From Synechococcus sp. LTW-R (lineage in GTDB: Bacteria > Cyanobacteriota > Cyanobacteriia > PCC-6307 > Cyanobiaceae), in assembly GCF_014217875.1 (NCBI RefSeq), contig NZ_CP059060.1:1302001-1366000 (forward strand): DNA of 64,000 bases, written 5' to 3'. The first letter of the stretch is position 1; every line of letters begins with the position of its first letter. The translations under genes were made by a program, and so were the position numbers. The notes under the pieces were generated by a model, which saw only the letters and a program-made list of their open reading frames with translations, had not been told where the DNA came from and searched no databases. This document shows, piece after piece, positions 17,631 through 33,423 of this stretch.

Positions 17631-18620
17631 ATGCGGCAGTCCCTTCGTTTATCGCTGGCGGCACTCGGCACCGCAGCTCTCTCAATCGCCTCACTGCCTG
17701 CGGTCAGCGCCAAACCTGCTCAAGTCGCCCAAGGGTCTGCCAGTGACCTGGGCGTGATGAGCATTCAGCTCAAGGACATCGTCACACCACAAGTTGGTGT
17801 CCAGGCTCAAACCCAAGCGGCTGGCACCCCCAACCAAGCAGGTCTGGGTGGCTTCCTTCCCCTGGTCATCGGCAGCAACAGCGTCTTCTATGCCGATGTC
17901 CTGGCGAATGCCAACTTCTCGGACTGGGGTAACAGCAGCAGCATCATCAACACCACCGTTGCTGGCACCACCATCTCCACCTCATCCCGCCTGGGCTATC
18001 GCTGGCTCAATGGTGACCGCAGTTGGATGTATGGACTGAATGCGGGCTATGACACCCGACCAATGAGCACGGGTCCCTCTGACACAGGCATTCCTGTTTA
18101 TGCCTCACGCACCGCTTTCTTCCAGCAGGCTGCCGTCAATGCAGAAGCAGTGAGCGATAAGTGGAACTTCAATGCCTATGCACTCATTCCCACTGGCACC
18201 ACCAACGCCCAACTCAACACCGTGTATCAAGGCGGCTCGCTTGATACCTATGGCTTGGATGCGGGCTACAACCTCACGAAAGCTCTAAAAGCTTCTGTTG
18301 GTTACTACTACCAAAACGGCGATGCAGGCGATGCCGATGGCTCTGGTGTCTTGGCTCGCCTTGCTTATGCCATCAACAACGGACTAACGGTTGGCACCAA
18401 CCTGTCTTATGACAGTGCCTTCAAGTCACGCTTCTCGGCAGACATCAAGTGGCGTTTCAATACGAATGGCGGTCCTGGCAAAGAAACACCGAAAACCAAT
18501 GCTGCCGCTACTGCCCTAACATCAACGCCAAGCAATAGGGACGTGCGGGTGCACGACAACGTATGCCAAACAGACAATTGGCGGTGCGGACACCGGAGAT
18601 CCATAAACGTAGTTAGGTAG
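17631..18620 (+). CDS. Outer-membrane beta-barrel protein, copy B
   Basis: 329 aa; same signal peptide and N-terminal half as copy A. The DNA from about 15795 to 16350 and its counterpart here look almost base-for-base identical. After VNAEAV the sequences part: this copy reads [20 protein letters not shown] and lacks the [10 protein letters not shown] insertion of A, resembling copy C instead. The barrel ends FSADIKWRF and the tail after VRVHD is unrelated to A and C. Mosaic structure points to recent gene conversion. Confidence 0.75.
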   Translation: MRQSLRLSLAALGTAALSIASLPAVSAKPAQVAQGSASDLGVMSIQLKDIVTPQVGVQAQTQAAGTPNQAGLGGFLPLVIGSNSVFYADVLANANFSDWGNSSSIINTTVAGTTISTSSRLGYRWLNGDRSWMYGLNAGYDTRPMSTGPSDTGIPVYASRTAFFQQAAVNAEAVSDKWNFNAYALIPTGTTNAQLNTVYQGGSLDTYGLDAGYNLTKALKASVGYYYQNGDAGDADGSGVLARLAYAINNGLTVGTNLSYDSAFKSRFSADIKWRFNTNGGPGKETPKTNAAATALTSTPSNRDVRVHDNVCQTDNWRCGHRRSINVVR

Positions 18621-18631
18621 CCTAACCACCC

Positions 18632-18660
18632 AAAGCCCCTGCAACCGCAGGGGCTTTTTA
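18632..18660 (+). terminator. Terminator after beta-barrel copy B
   Basis: Arms AAAGCCCCTGC / GCAGGGGCTTT with loop AACC and a T tract. Confidence 0.9.
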
Positions 18661-18850
18661 TTTCTTTATTCACACCAGTAAGCCAACAAATCAGCCTCCA
18701 ATACCTGGCACCATCGCCCTCGGCTTAGCCCAATGGCAGGTCACTCACGGCATTCTTTACCTCATCGCAAGACCGCAAGACACACCAAAGCCTCCCTAGC
18801 CTCCCTCAATATCTCTTCTCCCTACTTCTATCCTTATTGCCTCAACGCAT

Positions 18851-19030
18851 TCACCAGCCACTTCGCTCTCTATCGCCATCACGGATGCCATTGGCTCGTC
18901 TAAATCTCACTGCTATCTGGTGCCACTCGTCAGGGATTGGGTTGAGCCGCATATCAAACGCAAACGGTAGTTTCTGCTGCCCAGGCGATACACGCTTTTT
19001 CTTGCTTCTTTGATGACCTCTTGCCTCAAC
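18851..19030 (-). pseudogene. Y1 transposase C-terminal remnant 2
   Basis: Last 60 or so residues of the transposase (VEARGHQRSKKKRVSPGQQK, then FRRANGIRDGDRERSGW). The N-terminal catalytic part is gone; homology stops about 45 bp before the PLD remnant at 19076. Confidence 0.75.
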
Positions 19031-19075
19031 CAAAGTGCAGGGGCAACAATAAGAAGCCATTTATCAATCAGCATT

Positions 19076-19166
19076 GATCGCCTCCAGCGCAGTGTCGATC
19101 TAGGCATCACTGAACGGTGGCGGCGAAAACCCGAGAGCACCCGCTAGCACTGCGGCATTGGAATTG
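19076..19166 (+). pseudogene. Degraded PLD 3'-end copy (fossil junction)
   Basis: By hand alignment 74 of 91 bases match the last part of the PLD gene (from GATCGCCTC to GGAATTG, matching 15349 onward), without gaps. It is the most diverged copy in the array and marks an old boundary between the beta-barrel segment and the next one. The frame has changes that remove the coding function. Confidence 0.75.
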
Positions 19167-19432
19167 ATTGTGAGTAAGCCGGAAGGGTCTCGAGCTCCGG
19201 GCAGGCTTAAACTATGGCTATGCCATAGAATATCCGAACGAATAAGTCCCTTCCATGAAAAACAAGAGACTATGGAGGAGATTTTCATACTCGCAAATGA
19301 CGGCGTCCACCCACTGAGCTTGGGTATAGGCGTTAGCCATGAGTTTTTTCGCCGCATCAGAGTAGGACAACTACAGTAGCGAACAATCATTCAAAGTCAG
19401 AGAATGATAGGACTACCGAACCTTCGCGATTA

Positions 19433-19966
19433 TCAGCCATCAGCCCAACTAGCCACACAAACGTCAACACTTGATTCATCTAGGAGTTCGACAGGGAAGT
19501 CACACCACCAAGCAACAAAGCCTTTATCTCCGATTTGACCATGCGGAGTCATACTGTGATAGCCACTATTGCTGCGATCACTTGTCAGCGAATATCCAGT
19601 ACAGTGATCGATGATTATCACCTGAGACCACTTAGACTTCATTTCTTCTAGATACTTGAGCTGCTCTTCATCGTCCTCATACTCAATCTGCTCCTCATAC
19701 CATTTTTCGATAGGGGTATGGTCAAGAGAGTACTTGTCTACCATTCTTTGAGAGACGAAAACCGTTCCAAAGTGCTCTGTATCTTCAAAGTAATAGCCAC
19801 TTTCGTGACGTCGATACACATCAGTGAATTCGAGAACCTCGTCGATTCCACCATCCCAAACCACTACTTCAACAGGCTTTCCTGTGAGGTTATTAGATGA
19901 ACGATCATCATCGGATAAGCCGAGTCGATCAGCGGCAGCCGCCATTCGCTTGATTAAGTCACTCAA
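19433..19966 (-). CDS. Hypothetical acidic protein
   Basis: 177 aa, soluble, acidic and rich in aromatic residues (ESGYYFEDTEHFGTVFVSQR, then WYEEQIEYEDDEEQLKYLEE). No signal peptide or membrane segment and no domain I recognise. An N-terminal amphipathic helix (IKRMAAAADRLGLSDDDR) precedes a beta-rich body. It lies first in segment 2, transcribed toward the left end. AT-richer than the flanking core genes, as expected of cargo. Confidence 0.6.
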   Translation of the reverse strand: MSDLIKRMAAAADRLGLSDDDRSSNNLTGKPVEVVVWDGGIDEVLEFTDVYRRHESGYYFEDTEHFGTVFVSQRMVDKYSLDHTPIEKWYEEQIEYEDDEEQLKYLEEMKSKWSQVIIIDHCTGYSLTSDRSNSGYHSMTPHGQIGDKGFVAWWCDFPVELLDESSVDVCVASWADG

Positions 19967-20031
19967 ACCACAAACCTCTCAAGAAGAACTGATACATCTT
20001 GCTCAGTGAGTTCATGCAGTAGCGATTCGAA

Positions 20032-20397
20032 TCAAGCCTCATCACCGGAAGAGCCCACCGGAATCAGTCGGATTGACTTCCTGCCCAATTTGATTTCAAA
20101 GTCGTCGCCTGGTTTCAGATCAAGCATGGCGGTGTATGCCTTGCCGACCATGAGGTTGCCGTTGAACTGAACTTTTGATGTGTAGGAAAGCTTCCTGCCA
20201 CCCTTCCCAACACCCTTGCCTCCAGCACCGAGGTCGATGCCCTTCGCATTCAGGAGTGCCTCATAGAAGGCAGTGAAATTCACACGGTCAGAACCGTCCT
20301 TCTTCTTGGAGACGTATCCACATGCGGTTGCCAGCTCCGTCTTTGGAGCATCACCCATCTCCTTGACCTTGGCGAGCAGCTCTTGTCCGGTCAGCAT
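20032..20397 (-). CDS. Cyanobacterial AbrB-family transcriptional regulator, copy 1
   Basis: 121 aa cyAbrB protein: GQELLAKVKEMGDAPKTELA, CGYVSKKKDGSDRVNFTAFY, then the C-terminal AbrB/SpoVT swapped-hairpin domain (GNLMVGKAYTAMLDLKPGDD, FEIKLGRKSIRLIPVG). cyAbrB proteins are DNA-binding regulators of carbon/nitrogen and stress genes in cyanobacteria. This one is carried inside an integrative segment, and a close relative sits at the equivalent place in segment 3 (34108), so it may regulate the element itself. Confidence 0.88.
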   Translation of the reverse strand: MLTGQELLAKVKEMGDAPKTELATACGYVSKKKDGSDRVNFTAFYEALLNAKGIDLGAGGKGVGKGGRKLSYTSKVQFNGNLMVGKAYTAMLDLKPGDDFEIKLGRKSIRLIPVGSSGDEA

Positions 20398-20476
20398 GGG
20401 CTTGGGTCATTTATGACCACAACATATCAAAGATACTGTGGGGGATCAAGAAAGAGTGAGGGGTTAGAAGATATTC

Positions 20477-20902
20477 CTACTTATAAGACGACATCCCAGC
20501 ATAGTTAACATCTCTGGTCGGTCCCATGAACCAGATCCACAGCACCAGTGAACCAAAAGGTACGAATACAAGGAGAAGCCAGACTGTAGAGCGTGCGGTA
20601 TCCCTTAGCCTTCTAACAGCCAGTGCAATCCTGGGAAGCATTGTAAGAAGCAAGAGAATGACGAACAGAAAGGATGAACTCTTCTCCATCAAAGAAGCAA
20701 CATCTGTAAAGAGCGCGAGATTCGGATTGGCTCCTTCAGCTTTCAAGGAAGAAAGGGATAGATGATCAAATGCAGATACCGACAATAGAAGAATCAGCAG
20801 AATCAAGCAGTCCCAAAAGACGAACCACCAGAACTGGTTTCTTCCGCTTCGTCCTTTGAAGTCAAAAGACTTACGCCATCCTTCAAAGTAATACCTAATC
20901 AT
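20477..20902 (-). CDS. DUF805 membrane protein
   Basis: 141 aa from an internal ATG (IRYYFEGWRKSFDFKGRSGR), the conserved DUF805 opening, followed by NQFWWFVFW and three to four membrane helices. The closing WFMGPT is also typical. An upstream extension of the frame gives a further 49 residues but no conserved sequence. The function of DUF805 is unknown; it is a common inner-membrane family. Confidence 0.8.
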   Translation of the reverse strand: MIRYYFEGWRKSFDFKGRSGRNQFWWFVFWDCLILLILLLSVSAFDHLSLSSLKAEGANPNLALFTDVASLMEKSSSFLFVILLLLTMLPRIALAVRRLRDTARSTVWLLLVFVPFGSLVLWIWFMGPTRDVNYAGMSSYK

Positions 20903-21033
20903 GCGCTCGGATTTTCTAAGTTGCAGTATCGCAAGACCCTTGTGTTGATTCAACCAAAAGAAAGAACTCGCTACAAAGCAGGGCAAGAATATCGCACACG
21001 TGATAAGATTAGCTCTCAAGAGTAGTCGCACGC

Positions 21034-23037
21034 ATGAAAGCACCGGCACTTATAAGGCTGGCTTGTATAGCTTGTGCTGGCATGTTGACTGCTAGCCCTG
21101 CGTATTCAACAGCTTCAAGCCCAAAGGCGACAATCAAGACAGAAGATGTTGGTAAAACACGAAAGAAGTCAACTGAAGAGGAGACCAAGAAGGCGAAAAG
21201 CTATGTAAGTGATGTCAATATGATGATCCTCTTTCTTTGGAAGAATTCGCGCTTTAAGGATCAGCCAATTCCTCGTGGAGTCATGAGTGACAACGAAGAT
21301 GGTCGCTACAACTTTTCTTATTATGGGAAGTCTGCATCATCCTTTTATACGGTAGACAGCAAAGGGAGGCTTACGACAAAAGGGACGACGGAAACAAGCG
21401 ATCTTACAAACACCTCGGAGAAGTATGCTGTCGCTATCAATATATTATGTGAGATCACTCAGGCAGACTGCGCTGAACTTACAAAAGAAATCACCTCTTC
21501 ATTTCAGGATATAGTCTCAGAATCCATAGCCGAGCATAATAAAGACCAATGGCGAGAGGCTATTGAACAAAACTCAGCACTCTCTGCACTAGTAGGAGAA
21601 GCACGAAGACTAGAAAAGTCAGGGAAGCTGGTCGAGGCAATAACCAACTACACCAAGGCATTAGAGATAGATCCAGATAATCCTTACAACCTCAATAGCA
21701 GAGGGGTTGTTCTTTCACGGAGTGGTGATCCAAAGAATGCAATAAAAGACTTCAATAAAGCACTTGAGATTGCTCCAGGGGACACCCTTATCTTGATGAA
21801 TAGAGCGTTGGCTTGGGATAGGTTATTCAACTATAGAGAGGCGATTAGGGATTTAGACAAGCTCTTAGAGGTCAACCCTGAAGATGCACAAGCTTTGGCA
21901 TATCGAGCCTCTCTGTACCTAAAGGTTGGCGAGATAGATAGAGCTTTTTTAGACTTTAAGAGGGCGAGACGGCTTGAGAATGTAGAGGCATACTATAAGT
22001 TGTATGACTACATTGATTCCCTTACAGACACCTCTCAAAAGCAAAGACTCTTATCCAAGATAATTCGTGATTCACCAGAGGAAACCCCTGCCTACTTTGA
22101 CAGAGGGAATCTCCATTACCAAAAAGGTGACTATAAGAGTGCTCATAGAGACTTTAAGCAGGTCACTCTGGCTGCGTCAAAGTTTGCCCCTGGATTCATG
22201 ATGCTTGGGATGGCTTCGCACAGTCTTGGAGACACAAAGAACGCACTGGTTAACCTTGCCAAAGCCGTAAGGATCAAGCCAGACTATGCAGACGCGATCA
22301 ACAATAAAGGCATTGTATATATGGCTCTTGGCGATTACAAGGCTGCAATCTTAGAGTTCACAACTGCAATTGAAATCAATCCTGATGACAGCGCATACTA
22401 CCGAAACCGTTGTGATACCTACCTTTTAATATCAGAGCATGAGAAGTCTATTGCTGACTGCTCGAAAGCAATCTCTATCGATGGCGATCAGTCTGGTCCG
22501 TATCTTGCCAGAGGTAGGGCGCAGCTTGCCCTTGGTAATCATAGAGATGCCAAAAAGGATATAGACAGATCTATAGAGAATGGCAATGAGACGCTGGAAG
22601 TATTCTACTGGAGTGGAATAACTGAATACCAATTAAAAGACTATAAGAAAGCTATCCGACGCATGCATCAAGTCCTTCGTCTTAACCCACGTGCTGATGG
22701 TGCATTAGTTGCTCGTGCTCAGTCCTGGCTCCAGCTTAAAAAGCTTGATTATGCACTAGAGGACCTAAGACAGGCGATAAAGGTGAATCCTCAGAGTCAT
22801 TACGCTTATGCAAATGAAGGGTATATACTAAAACAACTGAATAGATTCGAAGATTCAATCCTCTCTTACGACAAAGCCATCAAGATTGCTCCCCGGCATG
22901 CAGATTCCTACACTGGCAGGGGCGCTTCAAAATATGAACTCAGTCAAACAGAGTCAGCCTGCAAAGATTGGCAGATTGCCAATAGTCTTGGCAGCAACGA
23001 GGCTAGCGGATTATACGAGAAGTACTGCTCTAAGTAG
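21034..23037 (+). CDS. Secreted tetratricopeptide-repeat protein
   Basis: 667 aa with a signal peptide (ALIRLACIACAGMLTASPAY) and, from about residue 190 to the end, about thirteen TPR units with the usual A/G-Y-A/P spacing (AITNYTKALEIDPDNPYNLN; AILEFTTAIEINPDDSAYYR; SILSYDKAIKIAPRHADSYT). Residues 50-180 form a non-repeat N-terminal domain without a recognised family. TPRs are protein-binding scaffolds; partner unknown. The gene diverges from the DUF805 gene and its base composition is lower in GC than the core. Confidence 0.85.
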   Translation: MKAPALIRLACIACAGMLTASPAYSTASSPKATIKTEDVGKTRKKSTEEETKKAKSYVSDVNMMILFLWKNSRFKDQPIPRGVMSDNEDGRYNFSYYGKSASSFYTVDSKGRLTTKGTTETSDLTNTSEKYAVAINILCEITQADCAELTKEITSSFQDIVSESIAEHNKDQWREAIEQNSALSALVGEARRLEKSGKLVEAITNYTKALEIDPDNPYNLNSRGVVLSRSGDPKNAIKDFNKALEIAPGDTLILMNRALAWDRLFNYREAIRDLDKLLEVNPEDAQALAYRASLYLKVGEIDRAFLDFKRARRLENVEAYYKLYDYIDSLTDTSQKQRLLSKIIRDSPEETPAYFDRGNLHYQKGDYKSAHRDFKQVTLAASKFAPGFMMLGMASHSLGDTKNALVNLAKAVRIKPDYADAINNKGIVYMALGDYKAAILEFTTAIEINPDDSAYYRNRCDTYLLISEHEKSIADCSKAISIDGDQSGPYLARGRAQLALGNHRDAKKDIDRSIENGNETLEVFYWSGITEYQLKDYKKAIRRMHQVLRLNPRADGALVARAQSWLQLKKLDYALEDLRQAIKVNPQSHYAYANEGYILKQLNRFEDSILSYDKAIKIAPRHADSYTGRGASKYELSQTESACKDWQIANSLGSNEASGLYEKYCSK

Positions 23038-23069
23038 ATCACAACCACGCACTGTCTGTGCTCAAAGCA

Positions 23070-23528
23070 ATGTACACGGTTAACTTAAGAAACCGGATCT
23101 GCTCTCGTGCATTTCTTGGGTTAGCCTTACTCTTCTCAGTAACGTCATTACCACCATCTTCTATAGCATCTCTTCCCCCTCTCATCCTCGACTCATTATC
23201 CTGGCGTGATCTGCCTATCGGATGTAGCCTTTACTTCTACCAGAAAAGCCTCAACAGCCCACTTCTTTGGACATACTATTCCCCTAGCACCAAAGGCAAT
23301 ACTTTATTACTTCTCAATGTAAATGGTATCCCCACACAAGCAGACATCTTTTCTTATTCGAATCTTCAGCTTAAAGCACGTTTTGACGACTATTCTCTTG
23401 TTTTGTCCACTCCTCAATGGGTTCGGATAGGGTATGAGTTGCAGAAGTCAAAAGGTCGTCTATCGATCTTTGATAAGACAGGGAAGATGATTCTCTCTCT
23501 TGCTGGTTCCGCAGAGCGGGGATGCTAG
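23070..23528 (+). CDS. Hypothetical secreted protein
   Basis: 152 aa from ATG 23070, with a probable signal peptide (RAFLGLALLFSVTSLPPSSI). The body is short beta strands (CSLYFYQKSLNSPLLWTYYS, then WVRIGYELQKSKGRLSIFDK). It starts 33 bp after the TPR gene on the same strand, so the two are probably co-expressed and both exported. A GTG four codons upstream is an alternative start. No recognised family. Confidence 0.6.
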   Translation: MYTVNLRNRICSRAFLGLALLFSVTSLPPSSIASLPPLILDSLSWRDLPIGCSLYFYQKSLNSPLLWTYYSPSTKGNTLLLLNVNGIPTQADIFSYSNLQLKARFDDYSLVLSTPQWVRIGYELQKSKGRLSIFDKTGKMILSLAGSAERGC

Positions 23529-23668
23529 TACTTGTTAAGCAGATACTTCCTCTAGAATTAGAATATCAACTTATTTCGTAGAACCTAAGTCTGCAACGTC
23601 ATTGGCTCAAGCAAGCTGATGTTCAAATGTACCCTACAATAGAACGAATCAATGCTTGGATAGCATTT

Positions 23669-24499
23669 CTATTGTTGCGTGTCAGCTCTCTTTTCTTTTA
23701 CAGCCTGTTCAATATTCCACTTGTCGAACAACTCTGACTCTTCGCGTTTCCCTCTTGGGATAGAAAAGACAGTCTGGTAGTAGACCACGCAAAGACTAAT
23801 CCCAAGCAGGAAATACCACCAAGGTGCAGCCGCTATCGTTAGTAATACGCCAATAGTAATCGTGGGCAAGTAAACCAGTAAACCGCCTCCCCTAACGGCA
23901 AACCCCATGGAGAATACAGATATAGGAAAGAGCAATAAGAGTAAAAGCTTCAGTGGATCACCTAGCACCATCGCATAGTAAAGCGGTAGAGCAATTGAAG
24001 CTAAAGCCAACAGTGTACTTGATATATTGACTATAAGTTCTCGCCTTGACGTCCGTATCTTTAGACGAAGTAGATATTCCACCTTGGCATCAAGGGGCGA
24101 ATCCTGTCCAGGGGGATGCTCCTCTGCATTAGCCCCCTTATGTGTTCCCTTAATTGCTGCTAGTAATCCCGTAATCCAGGCAATGTTGGAGAACGCAAGT
24201 GAAACCGCATCTCCCGTACCTGCATCCCCAACTGTGATTGAGACCAATCCTCCTTTGTCGATGATCCAGTTGCCCAGCAGAAGAAGTCCTATCCCTACCA
24301 GTGATGTAAACACCTTTGTAAGAAGTTGCCGATGCTCCTTTCCAGGATTTCCCCACACGCCAATGATGACTCCTATTGAAGTCATCGAGAGTAAATACCC
24401 TAAAAAACTAACCAGCCCAAATGGAAATCCTGAAAAAGAAAGGAGAATAGAGACAGTCAGCAGCGCCAGGTTTATTAAAGAAAAAGCAGCTTCAATCAT
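23669..24499 (-). CDS. Hypothetical multi-pass membrane protein
   Basis: 276 aa with about eight hydrophobic helices in two groups (N-terminal NLALLTVSILLSFSGFPFGL; C-terminal WWYFLLGISLCVVYYQTVF) separated by a soluble loop around residues 118-140 (KGANAEEHPPGQD) and ending in a charged tail (EKRADTQQ). No recognised family or transport motif. Convergent with the preceding secreted-protein gene. Confidence 0.6.
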   Translation of the reverse strand: MIEAAFSLINLALLTVSILLSFSGFPFGLVSFLGYLLSMTSIGVIIGVWGNPGKEHRQLLTKVFTSLVGIGLLLLGNWIIDKGGLVSITVGDAGTGDAVSLAFSNIAWITGLLAAIKGTHKGANAEEHPPGQDSPLDAKVEYLLRLKIRTSRRELIVNISSTLLALASIALPLYYAMVLGDPLKLLLLLLFPISVFSMGFAVRGGGLLVYLPTITIGVLLTIAAAPWWYFLLGISLCVVYYQTVFSIPRGKREESELFDKWNIEQAVKEKRADTQQ

Positions 24500-24540
24500 A
24501 GTTTTCAGGCGTGATTGACCATGGGTTGACCATTTACCTC

Positions 24541-24750
24541 TTAGTCTTCACCTTTCCAATTCTCAATGAACTCTTTTAGGTCCTCGTCGTCATCCCATCC
24601 TGTTTCTTCAATCAGTTGTTCAATAGTAAGAGTGTTAAACCATGCTCTGCGTTCTTCGACCGTCATATCTCCCGGCTCTTCTCCATCATGGAGCAAATGC
24701 TCATACTCATTTGTCAAGCATTTAACAAGTAGTTCCTTGCTGTAGTTCAT
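24541..24750 (-). CDS. Small acidic protein, FIExW family member 1
   Basis: 69 aa, acidic and probably all helical, ending DLKEFIENWKGED. It has the same plan as the 76-aa protein at 24844: basic N-terminal helix (KELLVKCLTNEYEHLL), acidic middle, then a closing FIExW helix. The resemblance argues that both are real genes. Function unknown. Confidence 0.55.
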   Translation of the reverse strand: MNYSKELLVKCLTNEYEHLLHDGEEPGDMTVEERRAWFNTLTIEQLIEETGWDDDEDLKEFIENWKGED

Positions 24751-24843
24751 GCATCACACCATATAACAAGAATAAGCTAAGGCTTCGCTTCTCTGTTGGC
24801 AACCCCATTGGAATCCTTGTGGCTTCAGAGCTGATCAGTAGAT

Positions 24844-25074
24844 CTATAACCACTCTTCAATAAACTCTGATAGCGCTCGAGGATCTGTAACGCCAGCTTC
24901 CCTCCATAAATCAGCGTTGCCTAGCTTCTGAAGGTTCGCGCTGTATCCAGCTTTTATTATTTCAGCCTCATGTTCCCAGGATGCGTCCTCCTCTGGCAGA
25001 GGGGCACCCATATCCTCGTCACCTCGCTGATTAACCAACGCTCTGATCAAGTGCTCTCGTTGGATGCTGTCCAC
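24844..25074 (-). CDS. Small acidic protein, FIExW family member 2
   Basis: 76 aa, ending ALSEFIEEWL. The opening REHLIRALVNQRGDED and close parallel the protein at 24541, 94 bp downstream on the same strand. No membrane segment or known motif. Probably a diverged tandem duplicate. Confidence 0.55.
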   Translation of the reverse strand: MDSIQREHLIRALVNQRGDEDMGAPLPEEDASWEHEAEIIKAGYSANLQKLGNADLWREAGVTDPRALSEFIEEWL

Positions 25075-25444
25075 ATCTACTCAACAACTCCTTGTAATAC
25101 TAGATTGGTCATGCCAGCAATAAACAGAGACATTTACATAAGCCGATCACAAGCGAAACTACATAGACCACAATACTCATAAAAACAATCCAGAAAATAG
25201 CCTTTCTCGCTGCAGCAATCGCAAGCTAAGCCTTCACTAGGTCAACAGATGACATCGGAGCCATCAAGCTATATATTTTATAAATAATAACTGAAACCAA
25301 CTTCAAGTCTCTAGCAGAGGCAAGAGATGCGAGCTTGTCATTAATCCCTCACCCCCCAATGCCATCAAGGCAAACAAGGGACTCGGTGTACCAAGAGATA
25401 CTTCTTAAATCTCGAAAAGACCGCATAAAAAACCAGTGATATCA
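25075..25444. other. AT-rich intergenic stretch in segment 2
   Basis: I see no coding frame of convincing composition, terminator or tandem repeat here. It is the divergent region between the FIExW pair and the HUH-like gene and must hold both promoters. Confidence 0.5.
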
Positions 25445-26116
25445 ATGAGTTACCCCAAATTAGCTAAGACGAATCACCAGATCGGAACCGAGCGAGAAGG
25501 AGTTCATTCACGACCAACGGGAGTGAATCGTTCTGATCACTCAAGGACACTCCTGAACCAGAGACTCCAGAGGATCCATCAGAAGACCAGATCACAACCA
25601 AAGGTCTTCAAGGAACTCATCAGAGACCAATGGGAGAACAACTTCCAACCCATGTGGTTCATCACTTTGCTTTGGAACGATCTACCAACTCGATCTGAGA
25701 CTGTCATCAGTCACTCCAAACACTTCAGGAACGTGTTCTTGACCTCGCTCTTGAAGCAACGCCTCAAGAAACTTCCAGAACCACCCTTAAGACCTCAGCT
25801 GGTGTTCTTCCATGAACGCAAACCAGTGGTCCGTCATGGTCGTCAGATCCTTGCCTTCCATACTCATCTCCATCTGGGTGCTTTACCTGACCCTCTGAAC
25901 GACCTCTGGTACATCGACAACCTGGTCCACCAAAAGGTCCGTCCAAGGGTCCAGAAACTCCTCAAGACCACCTCAGAGGAGAACAGGGGTGTGGTGATCA
26001 AACCCTGGGTCTGGGAGCATCACGCGTCCTACAACCTGAAGGACTACTACTCCTACAGACACCATCAGGATCCAGACCTCGTTCTTGATTACCAGAATTC
26101 AGACCTGTTGTTCTAA
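25445..26116 (+). CDS. HUH-like endonuclease / Rep candidate
   Basis: 223 aa. Three blocks resemble the order of motifs in HUH replication initiators and relaxases: WFITLLWNDLPT at about 71-82 (motif 1-like strand), FHTHLHLG at 138-145 (metal-binding H-U-H), and YNLKDYYSY at 196-204 (candidate catalytic tyrosine near lysine). The protein is basic, with an N-terminal tail of about 50 residues. If right, it would nick single-stranded DNA during element replication or transfer. I do not recognise the exact family; motif spacing is the whole argument. The GTG at 25436 is an alternative start. Confidence 0.5.
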   Translation: MSYPKLAKTNHQIGTEREGVHSRPTGVNRSDHSRTLLNQRLQRIHQKTRSQPKVFKELIRDQWENNFQPMWFITLLWNDLPTRSETVISHSKHFRNVFLTSLLKQRLKKLPEPPLRPQLVFFHERKPVVRHGRQILAFHTHLHLGALPDPLNDLWYIDNLVHQKVRPRVQKLLKTTSEENRGVVIKPWVWEHHASYNLKDYYSYRHHQDPDLVLDYQNSDLLF

Positions 26117-26336
26117 AGAGGATAAATAGAACTATCAAGCAACAGGAATCCTCGTACAAGTAAATGCCAGAAACGAACCAGAGGTGTATCAGCTTATTCT
26201 TCGGTAAACGCAATCAGAGTACACTCAGAAAACTAGACTCTTTATCAATAAAGCTAAGGAGGTCGAGAACAGGAACTATAGACTTCCTAATTACTCATTA
26301 CGAGTGGTTCCGGCACAACCATAGCGAGGTAGTCGA

Positions 26337-26495
26337 ATGAATATTTCGATACAACTAGGGAGAGTCGAATATGAGATGCTCAAAGAGTTGCAGCTGAAGG
26401 ACAGTCGGTACAGAAAAGGGCTATCAAAAAAGATAGCCCTAGACATCAACAGCGACTACAGCTCATTCAAGCTAAGAAAGGGAAAGCGAGAATGA
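26337..26495 (+). CDS. Small basic peptide
   Basis: 52 aa, lysine/arginine-rich (RKGLSKKIALDINSDYSSFK), starting at an ATG 220 bp after the HUH-like gene on the same strand. Size and charge fit a small DNA-binding or accessory protein, but there is no homology to cite. Reality is uncertain. Confidence 0.3.
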   Translation: MNISIQLGRVEYEMLKELQLKDSRYRKGLSKKIALDINSDYSSFKLRKGKRE

Positions 26496-26514
26496 CTAAA
26501 TGAAATTACACTTA

Positions 26515-27084
26515 TCAGAGATCTTCAAGTGACTTATCCATAAAGGCAACAAATTCACTCTGTCTGCCAGAAGCCGCCAGTTGCAATGCTTCCCTAAATT
26601 GTCGCTGTTCAATAAGATTGCGGCAGTCTTGAACCTTAGCTACGCTCTTGATCAAGCCTTGGCAAGCTTCCACAATCTCTTCAATACAATTGAAATAGCC
26701 GAGCGGATCAAATACTCCTCTGACATCACTAGAGATTGCGCGCTGAGTGCTATAAGGCTTTCTAAAGCAACACTGCTTTTCAAGGCGATCGATAAAACCG
26801 CTTACCCTATTGGTTACGGTATTCTCATTAAATTTACTAAATTTTCCAAGGGAACAAGAAAACTCTCTTGAATCCAAGAAAGCCTGCTTAGCAACAGCAT
26901 ATGCCGTCTCATATTCTTTTCTTCGATTCGAGGCTACATAGGTTCGAATCATCTGAATGGCAAGGTCAAAATCACGACTTTCCAGGCAAACAAAGTCTTC
27001 CAGGATCGCCTGTTTTTGAGACCAACTTGCAGGATTATCGATAATGTCAGCAAAGACATTCTGAGCATTGTCAACTAGGTACAT
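26515..27084 (-). CDS. Hypothetical helical protein
   Basis: 189 aa, almost entirely helical, without signal or membrane segments. It begins YLVDNAQNVFADIIDNPASW and ends SEFVAFMDKSLEDL; cysteines occur in pairs (CSLG, QCCF). No recognised domain. The next small gene (27137) is on the same strand 52 bp upstream, so they may form a two-gene unit between the HUH-like gene and the integrase. Confidence 0.55.
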   Translation of the reverse strand: MYLVDNAQNVFADIIDNPASWSQKQAILEDFVCLESRDFDLAIQMIRTYVASNRRKEYETAYAVAKQAFLDSREFSCSLGKFSKFNENTVTNRVSGFIDRLEKQCCFRKPYSTQRAISSDVRGVFDPLGYFNCIEEIVEACQGLIKSVAKVQDCRNLIEQRQFREALQLAASGRQSEFVAFMDKSLEDL

Positions 27085-27136
27085 AAGCAGTTTTCGGGTA
27101 ATTTGGCAGACACATCAAGAGTCGAGAAGCGGAGAC

Positions 27137-27373
27137 TCAGCTCTCTTTCCATTCAAGATAATCATCGAAATCAATTCCAGCGCGGTGAAGGATAGACTCC
27201 TCAAATGCATTAATGTCGTCATCACGCAAAAGGTTCATGTCCATTAAGCGGTACATCGCCTTACGCGTTTCAACAATTGCGAAGAAAAGCTTTTCTTGGT
27301 TCACGATGAAAGAAGTAATTAGCTCTAGAAGGGCAGGGAGAAAATCCCGCTTGACTTGATCCCTTTCGGGCAA
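27137..27373 (-). CDS. Hypothetical small protein
   Basis: 78 aa, helical, with a hydrophobic face (FLPALLELITSFIVNQEKLF) and an acidic C-terminus (AGIDFDDYLEWKES). Same strand as the 189-aa protein downstream; possibly a pair. No family recognised. Confidence 0.5.
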   Translation of the reverse strand: MPERDQVKRDFLPALLELITSFIVNQEKLFFAIVETRKAMYRLMDMNLLRDDDINAFEESILHRAGIDFDDYLEWKES

Positions 27374-27640
27374 GATGTATTAGGTAGATTTCGCAGAGAG
27401 GGTTGCTCAATTCACCCCGTTTCGATGAGACAATTATAAGGCTGCACAAGCACCCCAGAAGCGCCTCTGTGCCAGTTCTTTTGTGCCCGAATGGCGCCAG
27501 GATTTAACCCCTAAGAACGCAGGCTGTACAGGGGTTTTCAGCGGTCATTTCTGGGCAACGTAAAACCTAGAAAAATTGGCACAAGGGGCGTCTCAAGCGC
27601 ACGAACATGAACGAAGCCGATGAACTCTGAATATCAGCAT

Positions 27641-28711
27641 TTAGCTCTCCTCCCAGTACGGCAAAACCACTCGACCTGTTGGCTTGGCATAGGTATTCAG
27701 TAGCTGCTCGGTCCTGTGCCCTGCCACTGCCGCCAGATCAGCAGGACTATTACCCATTGCCAGGGCATGGCTCAGAAATGAATGCCTCTGGGCATACAAA
27801 CGCCTAGGCGCCAATCCAACCCGCCTTTGACTGCGCTTCCACACGAGCTCCAGTCCTGAGTCATACAAGTGCCCATAGGTCTTAGGGGTGACAAACACCA
27901 GTCCCTTATGGGTGTCCAGACCAAGTGCCGCCATCTGGTCCTTGTGATCCTTCAGCAGTGCCACCAGATCCCCACGTAATGGCACAACCCGACTCTTCCC
28001 CGTCTTGGTACCAGCCCAGTGCCTTTTGTGCGTGTAGACGCCGTCGCGCCTCAAGGTCTTGGTGATCAACAGCTCACCTGCCTCCAAGCGAACACAATCC
28101 CAAGTCAGCCCTATGAGCTCAGCGTTCCTGAGTCCTGTGCCTAGCCAGACGGCAAAGCAGGCATAAAACCACTCCTCATTGGTCCTGATCTCCTCCAGCA
28201 CCATCTGGATCTCCCCTTTGCTCAGGACTTCCTCCTGAACGCTGCGGTGAGGAACTTTGATGAATGCGACAGAGAGAGCCTTGTTGTTGGGTTGAACGGT
28301 CCTGATCGTGCTCAAGATCGTGGAGCGGGTGGAGGCTGCAAGTCCTTCAGCTTCCATCCACCGCAAGAACTCCCTGACCTCTCTTTCAGTCCGCAAAGCA
28401 CCGCCATACCGCTTGAGCACCCGATAGGCATGGGTGGTCCTGCCTTGACGCTTCCGCAGCATCAGCTCCTCCATTGCCTTCAGGAGGTCGGGGTCTTTCC
28501 CCTCCACAAGCGGCTTGTATCGGGAGAGGCTCCAGTCCAGATTCCCCTCCCGATAGTCCCTCCAGATCTCCGCAGAGATCGCCTGAGCTCGTGCCCTCGC
28601 AATCGGATCCTCGAACCTGCCCAAACGGTTGATGAAATGGTCTTTGCCATCCAGGCGGACCCGAACCTGTAGGGCACCGTTGTTATTCCGCAGGGTTGGT
28701 GCTTTCCTCAA
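27641..28711 (-). CDS. int: Tyrosine recombinase (integrase), segment 2
   Basis: 356 aa site-specific recombinase. An arm-binding N-terminus (TLRNNNGALQVRVRLDGKDH) and a core-binding domain (about 75-165) precede the catalytic domain: Arg in GTGLRNAELIGLTWDCV, Lys around AGTKTGKSRVVPL, the HxxR-like box in YAQRHSFLSHALA, AGHRTEQLL and nucleophile Tyr in NTYAKP. It reads away from the PLD 3' copy that begins 176 bp upstream, the usual place for an integrase beside its attachment site. Very similar to the enzyme at 34827. Confidence 0.93.
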   Translation of the reverse strand: MRKAPTLRNNNGALQVRVRLDGKDHFINRLGRFEDPIARARAQAISAEIWRDYREGNLDWSLSRYKPLVEGKDPDLLKAMEELMLRKRQGRTTHAYRVLKRYGGALRTEREVREFLRWMEAEGLAASTRSTILSTIRTVQPNNKALSVAFIKVPHRSVQEEVLSKGEIQMVLEEIRTNEEWFYACFAVWLGTGLRNAELIGLTWDCVRLEAGELLITKTLRRDGVYTHKRHWAGTKTGKSRVVPLRGDLVALLKDHKDQMAALGLDTHKGLVFVTPKTYGHLYDSGLELVWKRSQRRVGLAPRRLYAQRHSFLSHALAMGNSPADLAAVAGHRTEQLLNTYAKPTGRVVLPYWEES

Positions 28712-28770
28712 GATCCAGCTCTTTGACTGGAATCTGGCTTAAAGCCGCCCCTAACCAAGAGCCAAGTTCA

Positions 28771-28790
28771 CTTAGCCATTCGTAGCCGCG
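28771..28790 (+). repeat. Right-end repeat, copy 1
   Basis: CTTAGCCATTCGTAGCCGCG; the same core occurs at 35948 and 39255, each 116-133 bp before a PLD 3' copy. Only this core is conserved here, whereas the other two share the whole right end. Confidence 0.7.
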
Positions 28791-28886
28791 TCCGAACTCA
28801 GGGGAGTAATGGATAGGAGTGGCTCAGCTACTGGCTCAAAGACCCTGAGCATCCCTGAGAATCCAAGCTGGGAGACCCATCTCAAG

Positions 28887-29135
28887 GACCTGCATCACAA
28901 GTTCGCCGTGATCGATCGCAAGACCGTCATCACCGGCAGCTTCAACTGGAGCCCGAGTGCTGCCCATCAAAACGATGAGGTGCTGCTGGTGATCCGCTCA
29001 CCGCAGGTCGCTGCCCACTTCACCCAAGAGATGGATCGTCTCTGGCGCAGTGCCGATCTGGGCATCACCGAACGATTGCGGCGCAAGCTCGAACGCAACC
29101 GCCAGCGCTGCGGCAGTGGGATTGAGCGGGATTAA
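28887..29135 (+). pseudogene. PLD 3'-end copy C
   Basis: About 249 bases matching the second HKD motif to the stop of the PLD gene: LHHKFAVIDRKTVITGSFNW, then [15 protein letters not shown] and the basic tail ending GSGIERD. It has no start or upstream domain, so it cannot be a functional enzyme. Presumed attachment-site duplicate at the junction of segments 2 and 3. Confidence 0.9.
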
Positions 29136-29145
29136 GCGAGGGCGC

Positions 29146-29175
29146 AGAAGGACTGAGTGGCTCAGGGAGTGGCTT
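29146..29175 (+). repeat. Left-end repeat, copy 2
   Basis: AGAAGGACTGAGTGG followed by CTCAGGGAGTGGCTT, 10 bp after the stop of PLD copy C; compare 15450, 36325 and 39632. Confidence 0.8.
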
Positions 29176-29551
29176 CGGTGGGCATCACCAAAGACTTATC
29201 CACTCTTTTCACGCAGTGGTGAATGCCATAGCTCACATAGACGTAAAAACGCCCTGGCTCACCAAAGAGCGTTTCGTTGCTGGGGGAGCGGCGGCGGTAG
29301 CCGCGTGTGGCGGGGTCGTCCTGGGAATACGCCTCCGTTTCCACCACCACACCCCAGAGCAGGCTGCCGCCTGTTTGGCGTTTCACCAACTTGCAGCCAA
29401 TCAGCTCAGGGGCAACAACCTCCGCTGGACGGCAGAAGAAGGCGTGGGGCAGGGCTGGGAAGTCCTTGGTAATGGGTTGGGTGGCTACGGGAGTGGCTTG
29501 TCTTCTCCCAGCTTGCCGCCGCAAACCGAAGTGCTCTAAGCCCAGTTGCAA
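29165..29551 (-). pseudogene. 3-methyladenine DNA glycosylase 5' fragment, copy 3
   Basis: Same N-terminal half and same cut-off as the fragment at 15470, with one local change (DPATRGYRR in place of DPACHGYRR). The shared breakpoint shows that the truncation came before the cassette was duplicated. Confidence 0.8.
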
Positions 29552-29599
29552 TGGCGGATTTCCTGGCGAAACTCCCGCCAGAAGTTGAGCGTGTCTGTG

Positions 29600-30568
29600 A
29601 TGCGGCAGTCCCTTCATTTATCGCTGGCGGCACTGAGCACCGCTGCTCTCTCCATCGCCTCACTGCCTGCAGTCAGCGCCAAGCCTGCTCAAGTCGCCCA
29701 AGGGTCTGCCAGTGACCTGGGTGTGATGAGCATTCAGCTCAAGGACATCGTTAAACCGCAGGTCGGCATCCAGGCTCAAACCCAAGCGGCTGGCACCCCC
29801 AACCAAGCAGGTCTGGGTGGCTTCCTTCCCCTGGTGGTCGGCAGCAACAGCGTCTTCTATGCCGATGTCCTGGCGAATGCCAACTTCTCGGACTGGGGTA
29901 ACAGCAGCAGCATCATCAACACCACCGTTGCTGGCACCACCATCTCCACCTCATCCCGCCTGGGCTATCGCTGGCTCAATGGTGACCGCAGTTGGATGTA
30001 TGGACTGAATGCGGGCTATGACACCCGACCAATGAGCACGGGTCCCTCTGACACGGGTATCCCTGTTTATGCCTCACGCACCGCTTTCTTCCAGCAGGCG
30101 GCTGTCAATGCAGAAGCGGTGAGCGATAAGTGGGCATTCAATGCTTATGCGCTCATTCCAACGGGTGACACCGAGCAACAGCTCAACACCGTCTATCAAG
30201 GCGGTGCACTGGACACCTATGGCTTAGATGCTGGTTACAACCTGACGCCAGGACTAAGAGCCTCTGTTGGTTACTACTACCAAAACGGTGACCTCAATAC
30301 AGCAGATGGCTCTGGTGTCTTGGGTCGCCTCGCCTATGCCATCAACAACGGACTAACGGTTGGCACCAACCTCTCTTATGACAGTGCCTTCAAGTCACGG
30401 TTTTCGGCTGACATCAAGTGGCGTTTCAATACGAATGGCGGTCCTGGCAAAGGTGCTGCCGTTACTGCCCTAACATCAACTCCAAGCAAGAGGGATGTGC
30501 GGGTGCACGATTGTAATTGCGATTTATCTGGTGCTACGAATTCATGTTGCTACTATCAACCGTGGTAG
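29600..30568 (+). CDS. Outer-membrane beta-barrel protein, copy C
   Basis: 322 aa with the same signal peptide design ([18 protein letters not shown]). The N-terminal half differs from A and B at only a few residues (IVKPQVGIQ); the second half follows copy B in outline but with its own loops ([25 protein letters not shown]). The tail after VRVHD is cysteine-rich ([18 protein letters not shown]) and unlike the other two. Promoter must lie in or before the mpg fragment upstream. Confidence 0.75.
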
Positions 30569-30622
30569 TAGAGAATGTGTGATTGAGTGTAGATTGATTG
30601 ATAAGTGATAGGCTAACCACCC

Positions 30623-30652
30623 AAAGCCCCTGCAACCGCAGGGGCTTTTTAT
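30623..30652 (+). terminator. Terminator after beta-barrel copy C
   Basis: Arms AAAGCCCCTGC / GCAGGGGCTTT, loop AACC, T tract; same as at 18632. Confidence 0.9.
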
Positions 30653-30840
30653 TTCTTTATTCACACCAGTAAGCCAACAAATCAGCCTCCAATACCTGGC
30701 ACCATCGCCCTCGGCTTAGCCCAATGGCAGGTCACTCACGGCATTCTTTGCCTCATCTCAAGACCGCAAGACACACCAAAGCCTCCCTAGCCTCCCTCAA
30801 TATGTTTCTCCCTACTTCTATCCTTATTGCCTCAACACAT

Positions 30841-31626
30841 TCACCAATAACTTCGCTCCCTTTCGCCATCACGGATGCCATTGGCTCGTCTAAATCTCAC
30901 TGCTATCTGGTGCCACTCGTTAGGGATTTGGTTGAGCCGCATATCAAACGCAAACGGTAGTTGCTGCTGCCCAGGCGATAAACGCTTTTTCTTGCTTCTT
31001 TGATGACCTCTTGCCTCAACCAATCGCTTCAGCATCCTTGAGCCCCAGTGGCACTTGGCTGCTCCTTTGGCGTGATGGCGATACCGCTGACAAAACCGCT
31101 CATAACGCTTGGAGCATCCCTCCAATGTTGGCGCCAGTTGCAGGAAACTTGGGTGCCATTCGCTGATGCCATCACTCGCCAACCTCCCGTAGTGCCCGTA
31201 GTTGCTGTAGGGGTCATAAAACCCCTTTCGCACTCCAGCTGCTTTGGGGTTGGCGTGGATATACCGCAAGGTATTGAGCACTCGTCTGTGGTCTTTAGGC
31301 GCAATGGCAGTGGCGTAATACCTGGCTTCCCAAAAGTGCCCGCAGCGACCCGTTAGGCGATTGAGTGCCATTGCTGAATACCAGCCAAACCAGTGCATCA
31401 GCCTTGGCAGTTGGCGTGCATCATCAGGTTTGATGAGCAGGTGCAGGTGATTTGCCATCAAACAAACGGCATACAACCTGTGAGGGACCTTGGCTTGTGC
31501 CTTGGCGAGCACTGCTAAAAGCACATCCCGCCTCAATCCCTTAGCAATCAAAAACTGACGGCTGTTGCACCGCAGCGTGATGTGGAAGGAATAGCCCTGT
31601 GGCAGGCAGCGTGGTGAGCGTGACAT
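30841..31626 (-). CDS. REP-associated tyrosine (Y1) transposase, full length
   Basis: 261 aa from an internal ATG (SRSPRCLPQGYSFHITLRCN). HUH motif NHLHLL within YAVCLMANHLHLLIKPDD, catalytic-tyrosine region in HFWEARYYATAIAPKD and LNTLRYIHANPKAAGV, then a basic C-terminal domain (RLVEARGHQRSKKKRLSPGQ). This is the TnpA_REP/IS200-like family, single-strand transposases often domesticated with REP hairpins. It is the only intact copy; C-terminal remnants lie at 17146 and 18851 in equivalent positions after beta-barrel genes. Confidence 0.88.
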   Translation of the reverse strand: MSRSPRCLPQGYSFHITLRCNSRQFLIAKGLRRDVLLAVLAKAQAKVPHRLYAVCLMANHLHLLIKPDDARQLPRLMHWFGWYSAMALNRLTGRCGHFWEARYYATAIAPKDHRRVLNTLRYIHANPKAAGVRKGFYDPYSNYGHYGRLASDGISEWHPSFLQLAPTLEGCSKRYERFCQRYRHHAKGAAKCHWGSRMLKRLVEARGHQRSKKKRLSPGQQQLPFAFDMRLNQIPNEWHQIAVRFRRANGIRDGERERSYW

Positions 31627-31651
31627 TTGGAATGTGAGGGCATCTTGGCTT

Positions 31652-31807
31652 TCACCTTGATGCTCTGCCCTTAGGGGTCTTGGCGTATTCCTGTTGGATT
31701 TGACTGATAAGAAGACCCTGCCGGTCTCTATAAGCCCGATTGACCTTCTGCACCTCAACCAGCATCGCTGCCTCTACATCAGGCAGCCGTATGGCAAGCG
31801 TTTTCAT
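31652..31807 (-). CDS. Small ribbon-helix-helix-like protein upstream of transposase
   Basis: 51 aa starting KTLAIRLPDVEAAMLVEVQK, a strand followed by helices as in ribbon-helix-helix DNA binders, with a basic end (YAKTPKGRASR). It stops 25 bp before the transposase start on the same strand, so is probably co-transcribed. Its ATG overlaps the stop of another frame (31804-31962) as ATGA, a sign of translational coupling. Confidence 0.6.
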   Translation of the reverse strand: MKTLAIRLPDVEAAMLVEVQKVNRAYRDRQGLLISQIQQEYAKTPKGRASR

Positions 31808-31962
31808 TTGTTTTTCTCCAGTCGCTCCAACTTCTCCACAATCGCTGCACGACAGAATGCCGACACATTGAGATGCTGGCTTCTTTTCAGCAGGAGCAAT
31901 GCCTGGTGGAGTTGTTGGGCGTCGCCTTCTGGGTAGGTGATGGTGAGTCTCTGCCACTTCCT
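31804..31962 (-). pseudogene. Start-less reading frame coupled to the RHH gene
   Basis: 52 codons open between an upstream stop (31963-31965) and TGA at 31804-31806, with no ATG or early GTG. It reads RLTITYPEGDAQQLHQALLL, then NVSAFCRAAIVEKLERLEKN, again strand-plus-helices like a small DNA binder. The ATGA overlap with the next gene suggests it was once the first gene of the operon; its beginning seems lost or frameshifted. Confidence 0.45.
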
Positions 31963-32450
31963 TCAGGCGGCATCGGCAGTTGAACCCTTGGGCACGGGAT
32001 GACACATTCAGGTACTCCAGAGCGATCTTGCGGATGTAGTCATGGGCATGGGAAATCCAGAACGGTTCCTGTTCAGGAAACCCGTGAACCTGATTAGCCG
32101 TCCTTGCACCAGATCGTCCAGTCAGATCAGGATTGAAAGAGAAAAATCGTGGGTGGTACAAGAATGACGAAGGCGTGGTCGCCATTGACCTCAACAACCT
32201 TGAGAAGGACTGACCAATAACGGAATAACAAAATAACAAAAGGCTCTGTGATTCTGAAAGCGTTTTTTGGGGAGTTTGTGCCTCTAAGGATCGATTAAGT
32301 CCAGAAGGGCACCGTCATCACTAATGAGTCGATGCCTCTTGCCAGTGCTTGGTGCTCGACGTAAGGCAACACGGAAGGCATCTGCTTCATTGTGCTTGGT
32401 CTGCCGATGTAACCACTGACCCCATTAGTTCTGATATTGGATGTGGACCT
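31963..32450. other. No confident gene
   Basis: A minus-strand frame from 32239 begins ATTPSSFLYHPRFFSFNPDL and includes FWISHAHDYIRKIALEYLNV, which looks like possible protein sequence, but it runs out of frame into the small-gene operon below 31970. It may be the decayed front of that operon. Otherwise nothing seen. Confidence 0.35.
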
Positions 32451-32648
32451 TCATTGGTTCCCCCATTGCTGAAAGTGCTGCAAACACAGGACTTCAACGT
32501 CGTCACAGTCGTTGCTGAACCAACCCTGGAATTCCCGCCTGAGTGCCTTCCTGTCACCTTTGGAGACCTTCTTCATGCGTCGGTGGATGTCGTTGAGGGT
32601 CTTGTCGAACACAAGTTCCAGACGGCGTTCTGATGCCCAGGAGGTCAT
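32451..32648 (-). CDS. Small protein coupled to integrase remnant
   Basis: 65 aa, basic and helical (SERRLELVFDKTLNDIHRRM, KKVSKGDRKALRREFQGWFS). Its ATG overlaps the stop of the integrase remnant as ATGA, so it was translated together with the recombinase. It could be a directionality or accessory factor by position; that is inference. Confidence 0.5.
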   Translation of the reverse strand: MTSWASERRLELVFDKTLNDIHRRMKKVSKGDRKALRREFQGWFSNDCDDVEVLCLQHFQQWGNQ

Positions 32649-32860
32649 GACGCCACCTCCATCCGTTGCCTGAATTTGTCGACAACCTTTTCCTTGTCGA
32701 TGTCCAGGTAATCCTGCAGGGACTGAAGAGAACGGTGTCCAGAGATGTGCTGGATTTCTCTGAGGGACCAACCATCCCGATACAACTCCGTCAGTTGGGT
32801 ATGGCGGAAGGAGTGGGAAGAGACACTGGATACAGCGTTCCGCCTCTCTGGCGAGTCTGC
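32645..32860 (-). pseudogene. Third tyrosine recombinase, C-terminal remnant
   Basis: 71 residues open after an in-frame stop at 32861-32863. They carry the closing catalytic boxes of a tyrosine recombinase: SSHSFRHTQLTELYRDG (HxxR), REIQHISGHRSLQSL and the nucleophile in QDYLDI, ending EKVVDKFRQRMEVAS. The front of the gene is missing. It differs clearly from the enzymes at 27641 and 34827, so it comes from another element. Confidence 0.72.
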
Positions 32861-32988
32861 TCAGTCCAGTGGCAAGACATGACCAGTGGTCGCTTCCCGT
32901 GAGGACAGGTGCTTGTACTGATGCCTTCTGTATCCCGAGGAACTAGAACAGGGTCAGATGCCACTTGCTGAGTTGCGTCTAGGGGAGG

Positions 32989-33015
32989 AAGGCGGTGTTG
33001 GCGCACCGCCTTTTT
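32989..33015 (+). terminator. Plus-strand terminator with no gene upstream
   Basis: Arms AAGGCGGTG / CACCGCCTT, six-base loop, T5. No plus-strand coding frame precedes it, so it may end a small RNA or be a leftover. Confidence 0.75.
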
Positions 33016-33096
33016 ATGTTCCTTGTCAGCACTTGAGGAACAGACTCCCGACAGAACGGGGGTTCGGTTTATGTTCGCCACGATTCACTGCTTTTG

Positions 33097-33309
33097 ATGG
33101 CGACATATCTGCTGAGAGACGGAAGTAAAGTCACTGCCGACATCATCCTCCCCCAGATGGATGTCTTCGTTTATGAAACCGATGGAGGGAAGACCGTTCA
33201 GGTTGTCCTAAGTGTTGAGGCGGAGCAGTTCTTGCTTAACTCACTCTCCTCAAAGGTTGTTCCCCTTCGCAGAAGAATGGAAACTGCCTACAAGAAGTGC
33301 TCTGCCTGA
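33097..33309 (+). CDS. Small hypothetical protein
   Basis: 70 aa from ATG 33097: ATYLLRDGSKVTADIILPQM, then a beta-rich middle (VQVVLSVEAEQFLLNSLSSK) and a basic end (RRRMETAYKKCSA). No known family; the alternation of strands and the clean start make it plausible. Confidence 0.45.
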   Translation: MATYLLRDGSKVTADIILPQMDVFVYETDGGKTVQVVLSVEAEQFLLNSLSSKVVPLRRRMETAYKKCSA

Positions 33310-33423
33310 CCTGAGGGCATTCCCATAAGTTGAGTGCTTTTGCTGGTGTCGTCTGCCTGCTGGGCGACCTATCAAGGGTTTAGACACCAACAGACCCACT
33401 GCTGTTCTGACGGGTCGGGTGCC

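Follow-up and report, generated by a model that had tools for sequence, protein, structure and literature searches.

Locus and gene content

The window analysed here is a stretch of 64,000 nucleotides from Synechococcus sp. LTW-R, and positions are counted from its first letter (Table 1). Inserted in the 3′ part of its phospholipase-D-like (PLD) gene are 24.6 kb of DNA, in which six copies of the PLD 3′ end delimit at least five integrated units. In the relatives G023 and G020, the PLD gene is uninterrupted and contiguous across this site, which represents the empty state; positions 1-1741 of L091 correspond to window positions 13700-15441, and positions 1540-3244 to 40093-41795. The unit of interest runs from 19073 to 28890, and G+C drops to about 44% at 19-27 kb of the window. 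It carries the gene here called rep, whose product is probably a replication initiator, and a tyrosine integrase gene that adjoins the right attachment (att) site.

The left PLD copy of this unit is without the att core, and exact excision of the rep unit alone therefore looks impossible. Recombination between 15204 and 28890 would excise it together with the neighbouring unit, and the window element may be stuck unless it leaves jointly in this way.

The array carries further genes. Cargo of the rep unit includes a gene for a 667-aa secreted-looking TPR protein (21034-23037), near which lie AbrB-like (20032-20397) and DUF805 (20477-20905) genes. Porin-like genes occur at 15848-16882, 17577-18620, and 29546-30568; two of the three are ∼96% identical in parts, and they are accompanied by truncated copies of a 3-methyladenine-glycosylase gene. 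A second integrase-like stretch was seen at about 34846-36000. By eye, 30841-31758 encodes an HUH-like REP-associated (RAYT-like) Y1 transposase (NHLHLLI, YIHANPK), and parts of its DNA recur at 17108-17407 and 18816-19115.

Table 1. Features of the rep unit and the surrounding array, in window positions
Feature	Position	Strand	Basis or remark
Tandem array of integrated units in the PLD gene	15200..40093	.	Comparison with G023 and G020; G+C
PLD 3′ copies	15200-15441, 19073-19206, 28890-29137, 36079-36314, 39386-39625, 40093-		
Left edge of rep unit, degraded PLD 3′ copy	19073..19206	+	78% match to PLD 3′ end, from the equivalent of 29031
Conserved upstream block GGGACTCGGTGTACCAAGAG	25378..25397	+	Second candidate origin region
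Probable HUH-type replication initiator (Rep)	25445..26116	+	223 aa; ORF, invariant catalytic columns, profile-profile links, AlphaFold2 models, dN/dS
Hairpin inside rep, ATTCAC-GA-CC-AAC-GG-GA-GTGAAT	25506..25528	+	Candidate double-strand origin or nick hairpin, or rep mRNA control
58-aa small ORF beside rep, RHH-like by eye (KLDSLSIKLRRSRTGTIDFLI)	26164..26337	+	Conserved 3′ of rep; alignment A13
Second small ORF, 52 aa (MNISIQLGRVEYEMLKELQ...), RHH-like start	26337..26492	+	DNA alignment
Tyrosine integrase of the element, 356 aa	27641..28711	-	PF00589, E 2.7e-16; 52% identical to L110 integrase
Right attachment site, duplicated 3′ end of phospholipase-D-like host gene	28890..29137	+	99% identical to intact G023 PLD; PLDc_2

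Catalytic motifs and selection

A preliminary description of the rep ORF had pointed to three peptides in the order of HUH endonuclease motifs and proposed a replication or mobilisation protein. The ORF (protein P0001, with a possible alternative GTG start at 25436) is real and contains all three in order, namely W71-FITLLWNDLPT, F138-HTHLHLG, and Y196-NLKDYYSY. Only 14 columns are invariant across 13 type-A homologues, which are 31-79% identical to the window protein, and six of these are E124, H139, H141, H143, Y196, and K199. Because the catalytic residues fall among so few invariant columns, the match of the peptides is more than chance. Pairs of rep copies have dN/dS of 0.13-0.33, so the reading frame is under purifying selection.

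The peptides correspond to the motifs of Rep proteins in the order I-II-III. Motif 1 is F72ITL, a hydrophobic strand (residues 69-75) with a threonine, in a context resembling WF[IG][TS][ILF]xW in which F72 is invariant. Motif 2 comprises H139 and H141, one residue apart and kept in all four subfamilies of the family (types A to D, below), with T or S, not a hydrophobic residue, between them. The glutamate expected before motif 2 is E124, invariant in type A, and by analogy with known Reps it may serve as a metal ligand. Motif 3 is Y196-x-x-K199, likewise invariant in type A and present as YxxK in types B, C, and D.

Two residue assignments of the preliminary description needed refinement. It had named H141 and H143 as the metal pair; the pair is instead H139 and H141, since H-[TS]-H persists in the distant subfamilies, which have lost the third histidine. 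It had placed the catalytic tyrosine around 196-202, and within that range Y196 is retained because it alone is invariant, whereas Y201, Y202, and Y204 are discarded and the tyrosines near motif 3 other than Y196 vary among type-A members. Nicking through Y196, with the metal ligands above, is the catalysis that these motifs predict.

A family known so far from picocyanobacteria

Direct profile searches with the window protein gave no Pfam, NCBIfam, PHROG, or PDB match, and no curated family recognises the protein itself. Searches for relatives returned homologues ranging from 80% down to 25% identity. Of 400 genomes in the same taxonomic family, 33 held matches to a profile built from ten members, and among 386 genomes sampled across the phylum the matches were confined to that one family; named records with homologues belong to Synechococcus, Cyanobium, and Vulcanococcus. 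So far, the homologue family is restricted to picocyanobacteria. Searches with tblastn of phage and plasmid collections gave chance matches only, and no type-A or type-C rep turned up in the viral contigs searched.

The profile matches add three subfamilies to type A. The signature of B is WW[LF]ISFHY .. E..GTGQ[FY]H[TS]H .. SYLGKQ, that of C is YI[IV]TWHW .. HER..RFHTHLL .. YI[IV]KQ, and that of D is WMLTFHY .. FHEK..QYHTHILL .. YLTKE. E..HxH..YxxK is common to all four, and none of B to D retains the third type-A histidine. Profile-profile alignment with hhalign gave E-values, pairwise and with no database correction, of 9.3e-12 for A-B, 2.4e-9 for A-C, and 2e-10 for B-C, and the A-B alignments disagree on where motif 3 falls. 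As an observation in its own right, C and D (L051, L052, L053) look like two more unclassified HUH-like groups in the same bacterial family.

The profile search proposed in the preliminary description thus gave nothing for the window protein directly, but its homologues lead to a PHROG replication-initiation family. Subfamily B matches phrog_3584, 'replication initiation protein', over the catalytic region (E 3.3e-7; members L044, L011, and L056), for which P0001 has no significant match. PF23343 (REP_ORF2-G2P), likewise approached through subfamily B, aligns over its full 99-position model with L039 at E 0.014 and a score of 16.1, below the gathering cut-off of 27.8, and does not match P0001. 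Matches of the family profile to 'dynein' structures in the PDB were judged to be chance, and a weak match to DUF6762 was set aside. The Reps of AAV and parvoviruses and RepB of pMV158 have no detectable sequence relation to the window protein.

Many type-A copies are decayed (L002/L059, L017, L060, L018, L020, L069, L070), through an in-frame TAG right after YNLKD, a frameshift, or loss of all but the C-terminal part. The small ORF beside these broken copies is mostly still open.

Predicted fold

A first AlphaFold2 model of Rep had a pLDDT of 73, and a second, of residues 31-223, a pLDDT of 81 and a pTM of 0.77. Both models have the order b-a-b-b-a-b-a, in which strand 3 bears the two histidines and Y196 lies past strand 4; the helix at Y196 is the least confident part of each. 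Structural matches in the PDB include AAV Rep (Z 7.0 over 118 residues), MVM NS1 (Z 6.4 over 147), and B19 NS1, and the first model also matches SIRV1 ORF119 and pMV158 RepB. Among viral structures, a microvirus replication initiator is the best match (E 2.4e-4). Y1 transposases are absent from the best structural matches, which is an absence only.

Unrelated ferredoxin-like domains tie with these matches at Z 6-7, mostly over 80-105 residues, and in the Foldseek PDB search with the first model CutA ranks first. Rep matches span more residues and extend into the tyrosine region. Because unrelated domains score equally high, the predicted RRM-like fold is compatible with an HUH enzyme and is not proof of one. 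In the structural check suggested beforehand, the predicted topology thus fits the RRM-like HUH core, and Reps of AAV/parvoviruses and microviruses are among the matches, at scores shared with other ferredoxin-like folds.

Small ORFs downstream of rep

The element had been described as otherwise having only an integrase, which overlooks two small ORFs conserved with rep. The first, 58-60 aa long, comes immediately after rep in at least 13 type-A loci, and conserved DNA extends into the second as far as about 26420. The type-B rep of L110 is also followed by a small ORF, where MKIITIKLTSVEATMLLELQ is the counterpart of the second window ORF. By eye, both window ORFs look like ribbon-helix-helix (RHH) proteins, and the profiles searched give no match; for the 58-aa ORF these were Pfam, NCBIfam, and PDB. 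The 58-aa product is probably a copy-control or accessory DNA-binding protein. The module of rep and RHH-like small ORF recurs in integrative elements at the PLD gene, tRNA-Cys, and uvrA. In L016, rep-downstream DNA occurs at 10711-10893 and 13046-13252; the element thus holds a second partial copy ∼2.3 kb further on, an arrangement that recombination between copies, with insertion of cargo, would give.

Candidate origins

A stem-loop nick site had been expected upstream of rep, in 25075-25444, where none is convincing (fold z -0.11). The search led instead to a hairpin inside the gene, at 25506-25528, as the best origin candidate. Within the genome, the window version (ATTCACGACCAACGGGAGTGAAT) occurs only once, and the hairpin is found at the same place in further type-A loci. 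Across ten distinct versions, two of which (L024 and L055) were picked by a stem search that slightly favours them, 97.5% of cells are paired and four of eight pairs have two-sided changes; none of 500 shuffles reached the covariation score. The first 156 nt of rep do not fold significantly better than shuffled sequence (z -0.82), so support for the hairpin comes from conservation, not raw stability.

The conserved block at 25378-25397 offers a second candidate. Its core, ACTCGGTG..A..GAG, resembles a covarying hairpin upstream of type-B rep, GCTT-A-CTC-GGTGGATT-GAG-AAGC, which recurs with compensatory changes in six distinct versions, giving weaker statistics than for type A. In type A, the upstream block retains hairpin form in some members only, and a strict origin motif common to types A and B was rejected since it failed for most type-A members. 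The nick site could lie in either the in-gene hairpin or the upstream block, and a role of the hairpin as RNA in rep control is possible.

Related elements at uvrA, tRNA-Cys, and PLD

The smallest relative is L110, a 3,506-bp contig of uncultured origin from IMG/VR with identical 127-bp ends. A k-mer length of 127 is used in common metagenome assemblers, and because the identical ends match this length, the single contig is most simply, and very probably, a 3,379-bp circle; exact integrated repeats of 127 bp are a less likely alternative reading. Its clear genes are an integrase, a type-B rep, the small ORF, and an FkbM methyltransferase gene as cargo. The integrase of L110 was the only close relative of the window integrase found in a broader search.

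The junction of L110 carries the 3′ end of uvrA. Genome G338 holds an integrated collinear relative, 83.6% identical over the whole circle, between two uvrA 3′ repeats; the tandem array around it holds more uvrA copies and another integrase, the same layout as in the PLD array of the window. Elements with integrase and rep thus exist integrated and, very probably, as circles. Contig 6 of G338 (L183) was seen to contain, at 300-10554, a uvrA 3′-end tandem array comprising five copies of uvrA and two integrases; one of its units carries a 72% relative of the window small ORF at 3016-3144, with no recognised rep there.

At tRNA-Cys, four elements of 6-8.5 kb (L059, L060, L018, L061) have the order tRNA-Cys, serine recombinase, rep, small ORF, cargo, and long integrase; at the far side, 26-33 bp of the tRNA 3′ end are repeated exactly and close the element. 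Rep is disrupted in the first three and intact in L061. The long integrase is invisible to Pfam; its sequence shows an RHTAFR box, together with TYLRY/F at the C terminus. In L071, a type-B rep lies next to several PLD copies.

Interpretation and alternatives

The catalytic set in Rep order, the PHROG link, and the compatible fold support the HUH reading, and 25445-26116 is likely to encode an HUH-superfamily rolling-circle replication initiator of a small integrative picocyanobacterial element.

The best-surviving alternative, itself unlikely, is that the window copy is a domesticated or decaying remnant without a present role. The left att of its unit is without a core and several relatives have stops or truncations, but the window ORF is intact, paired copies show the dN/dS values given above, and all catalytic residues are kept.

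The preliminary description had set replication beside mobilisation, and motif order favours the former. As a relaxase, the HUH protein would nick an oriT, and the element would be mobilised in trans by a conjugative plasmid, without replication. Such integrative mobilisable elements (IMEs) likewise pair an integrase with a relaxase, and HUH relaxases use the same chemistry. Relaxases, though, have the motif order III-II-I and Reps I-II-III (PMC5714925); because the window protein has I-II-III, it is read as a Rep rather than a relaxase. It is also small and without a Mob family match, and in the elements, as read without dedicated profiles, no type-IV secretion gene stood out. A relaxase is accordingly improbable.

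Similarity between window DNA and close relatives is confined to about 25375-26420, as would suit a ∼1-kb insertion sequence of rep and small ORF that jumps by itself through a single-strand transposase, with the integrase nearby by coincidence. This idea was dropped because att-bounded elements and a circle were found: rep recurs inside integrase-bounded elements at three att sites, and L110 holds integrase and rep together. Neither conserved outer ends nor 1-kb empty sites were seen, and rep is a single copy in its 2.42-Mb single-contig genome, leaving a self-jumping sequence very unlikely. Equally slim is the chance of an RRM/ferredoxin-like protein that keeps its histidines and tyrosine for some other reason: its fold scores tie with those of S6, CutA, and RND pump domains, but its invariant residues are those of HUH enzymes, correctly ordered and common to four divergent subfamilies, one subfamily matches a replication-initiator profile, and among the structural matches those to Reps are the longest, reaching the tyrosine region.

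For a rolling-circle initiator, the following cycle is proposed. The integrase would excise the element as a circle and restore the target gene. Rep would then nick one strand at a hairpin, for which 25506-25528 is the best candidate, and stay bound via Y196, while the free 3′ OH would be extended by host polymerase to yield single-stranded circles. These would become double-stranded copies able to reintegrate, and the RHH-like protein would probably limit rep expression. A wider proposal is that miniature integrative replicons, down to 3.4 kb and consisting of an integrase, a Rep of the new HUH family, a small regulator, and a single cargo gene, exit the chromosome as circles, replicate by rolling circle from the hairpin inside rep, and spread as single-stranded or circular DNA in helper-phage particles; put together in this form, it is speculative and rather doubtful.

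Relation to known systems

AICEs, such as pSAM2 with RepSA, combine a tyrosine integrase with an RCR initiator, integrate at gene ends, and have an excised circular replicative form (PMC3218068). The window element has an integrase (PF00589) and, in its probable HUH Rep, an RCR initiator, kinship to RepSA not being implied. The 3.4-kb circle is without an FtsK/SpoIIIE-type Tra, and the present elements differ from AICEs in being far smaller and cyanobacterial. The Rep family is new, on an element plan that is already known since AICEs combine integrase and RCR Rep.

A picocyanobacterial element at tRNA-Cys/tRNA-Phe has been described with an integrase and a serine recombinase, with no replication gene named and its mobilisation mechanism stated as unknown (PMC10187409). 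The four tRNA-Cys elements above share its site, a novel long integrase, and a small serine recombinase, and by site and gene content appear to be the same elements. The window element differs in its PLD site, its Pfam-recognised integrase, and the lack of any serine recombinase seen. Tycheposons, first found in Prochlorococcus, are tRNA-associated cargo elements of 4-200 kb with a tyrosine recombinase (PMC10872708); compared with that description, the PLD and uvrA elements lie at the 3′ ends of protein genes and range down to 3.4 kb. A literature search of limited scope turned up no earlier description of this Rep family, nor of the elements at PLD and uvrA.

Among known initiators, the phage family phrog_3584 resembles subfamily B over the catalytic region, with no match for the window protein. 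PF23343 and the microvirus initiators are approached by the sub-threshold alignment of L039 and by the best viral structure match of the window model. With the origin-binding domains of AAV/parvovirus Rep and pMV158 RepB, the window protein shares a compatible predicted fold and motif order, without detectable sequence relation.

Significance

Marine and freshwater picocyanobacteria dominate open-water photosynthesis, and the movement of their genomic islands is poorly known. The Rep family suggests how little-understood elements of these organisms copy themselves, and a defined catalytic tyrosine together with a candidate origin makes the replication hypothesis directly testable. The rep gene can serve as a marker for finding such elements, and the rep module might give these organisms, for which few are available, a native replicon.
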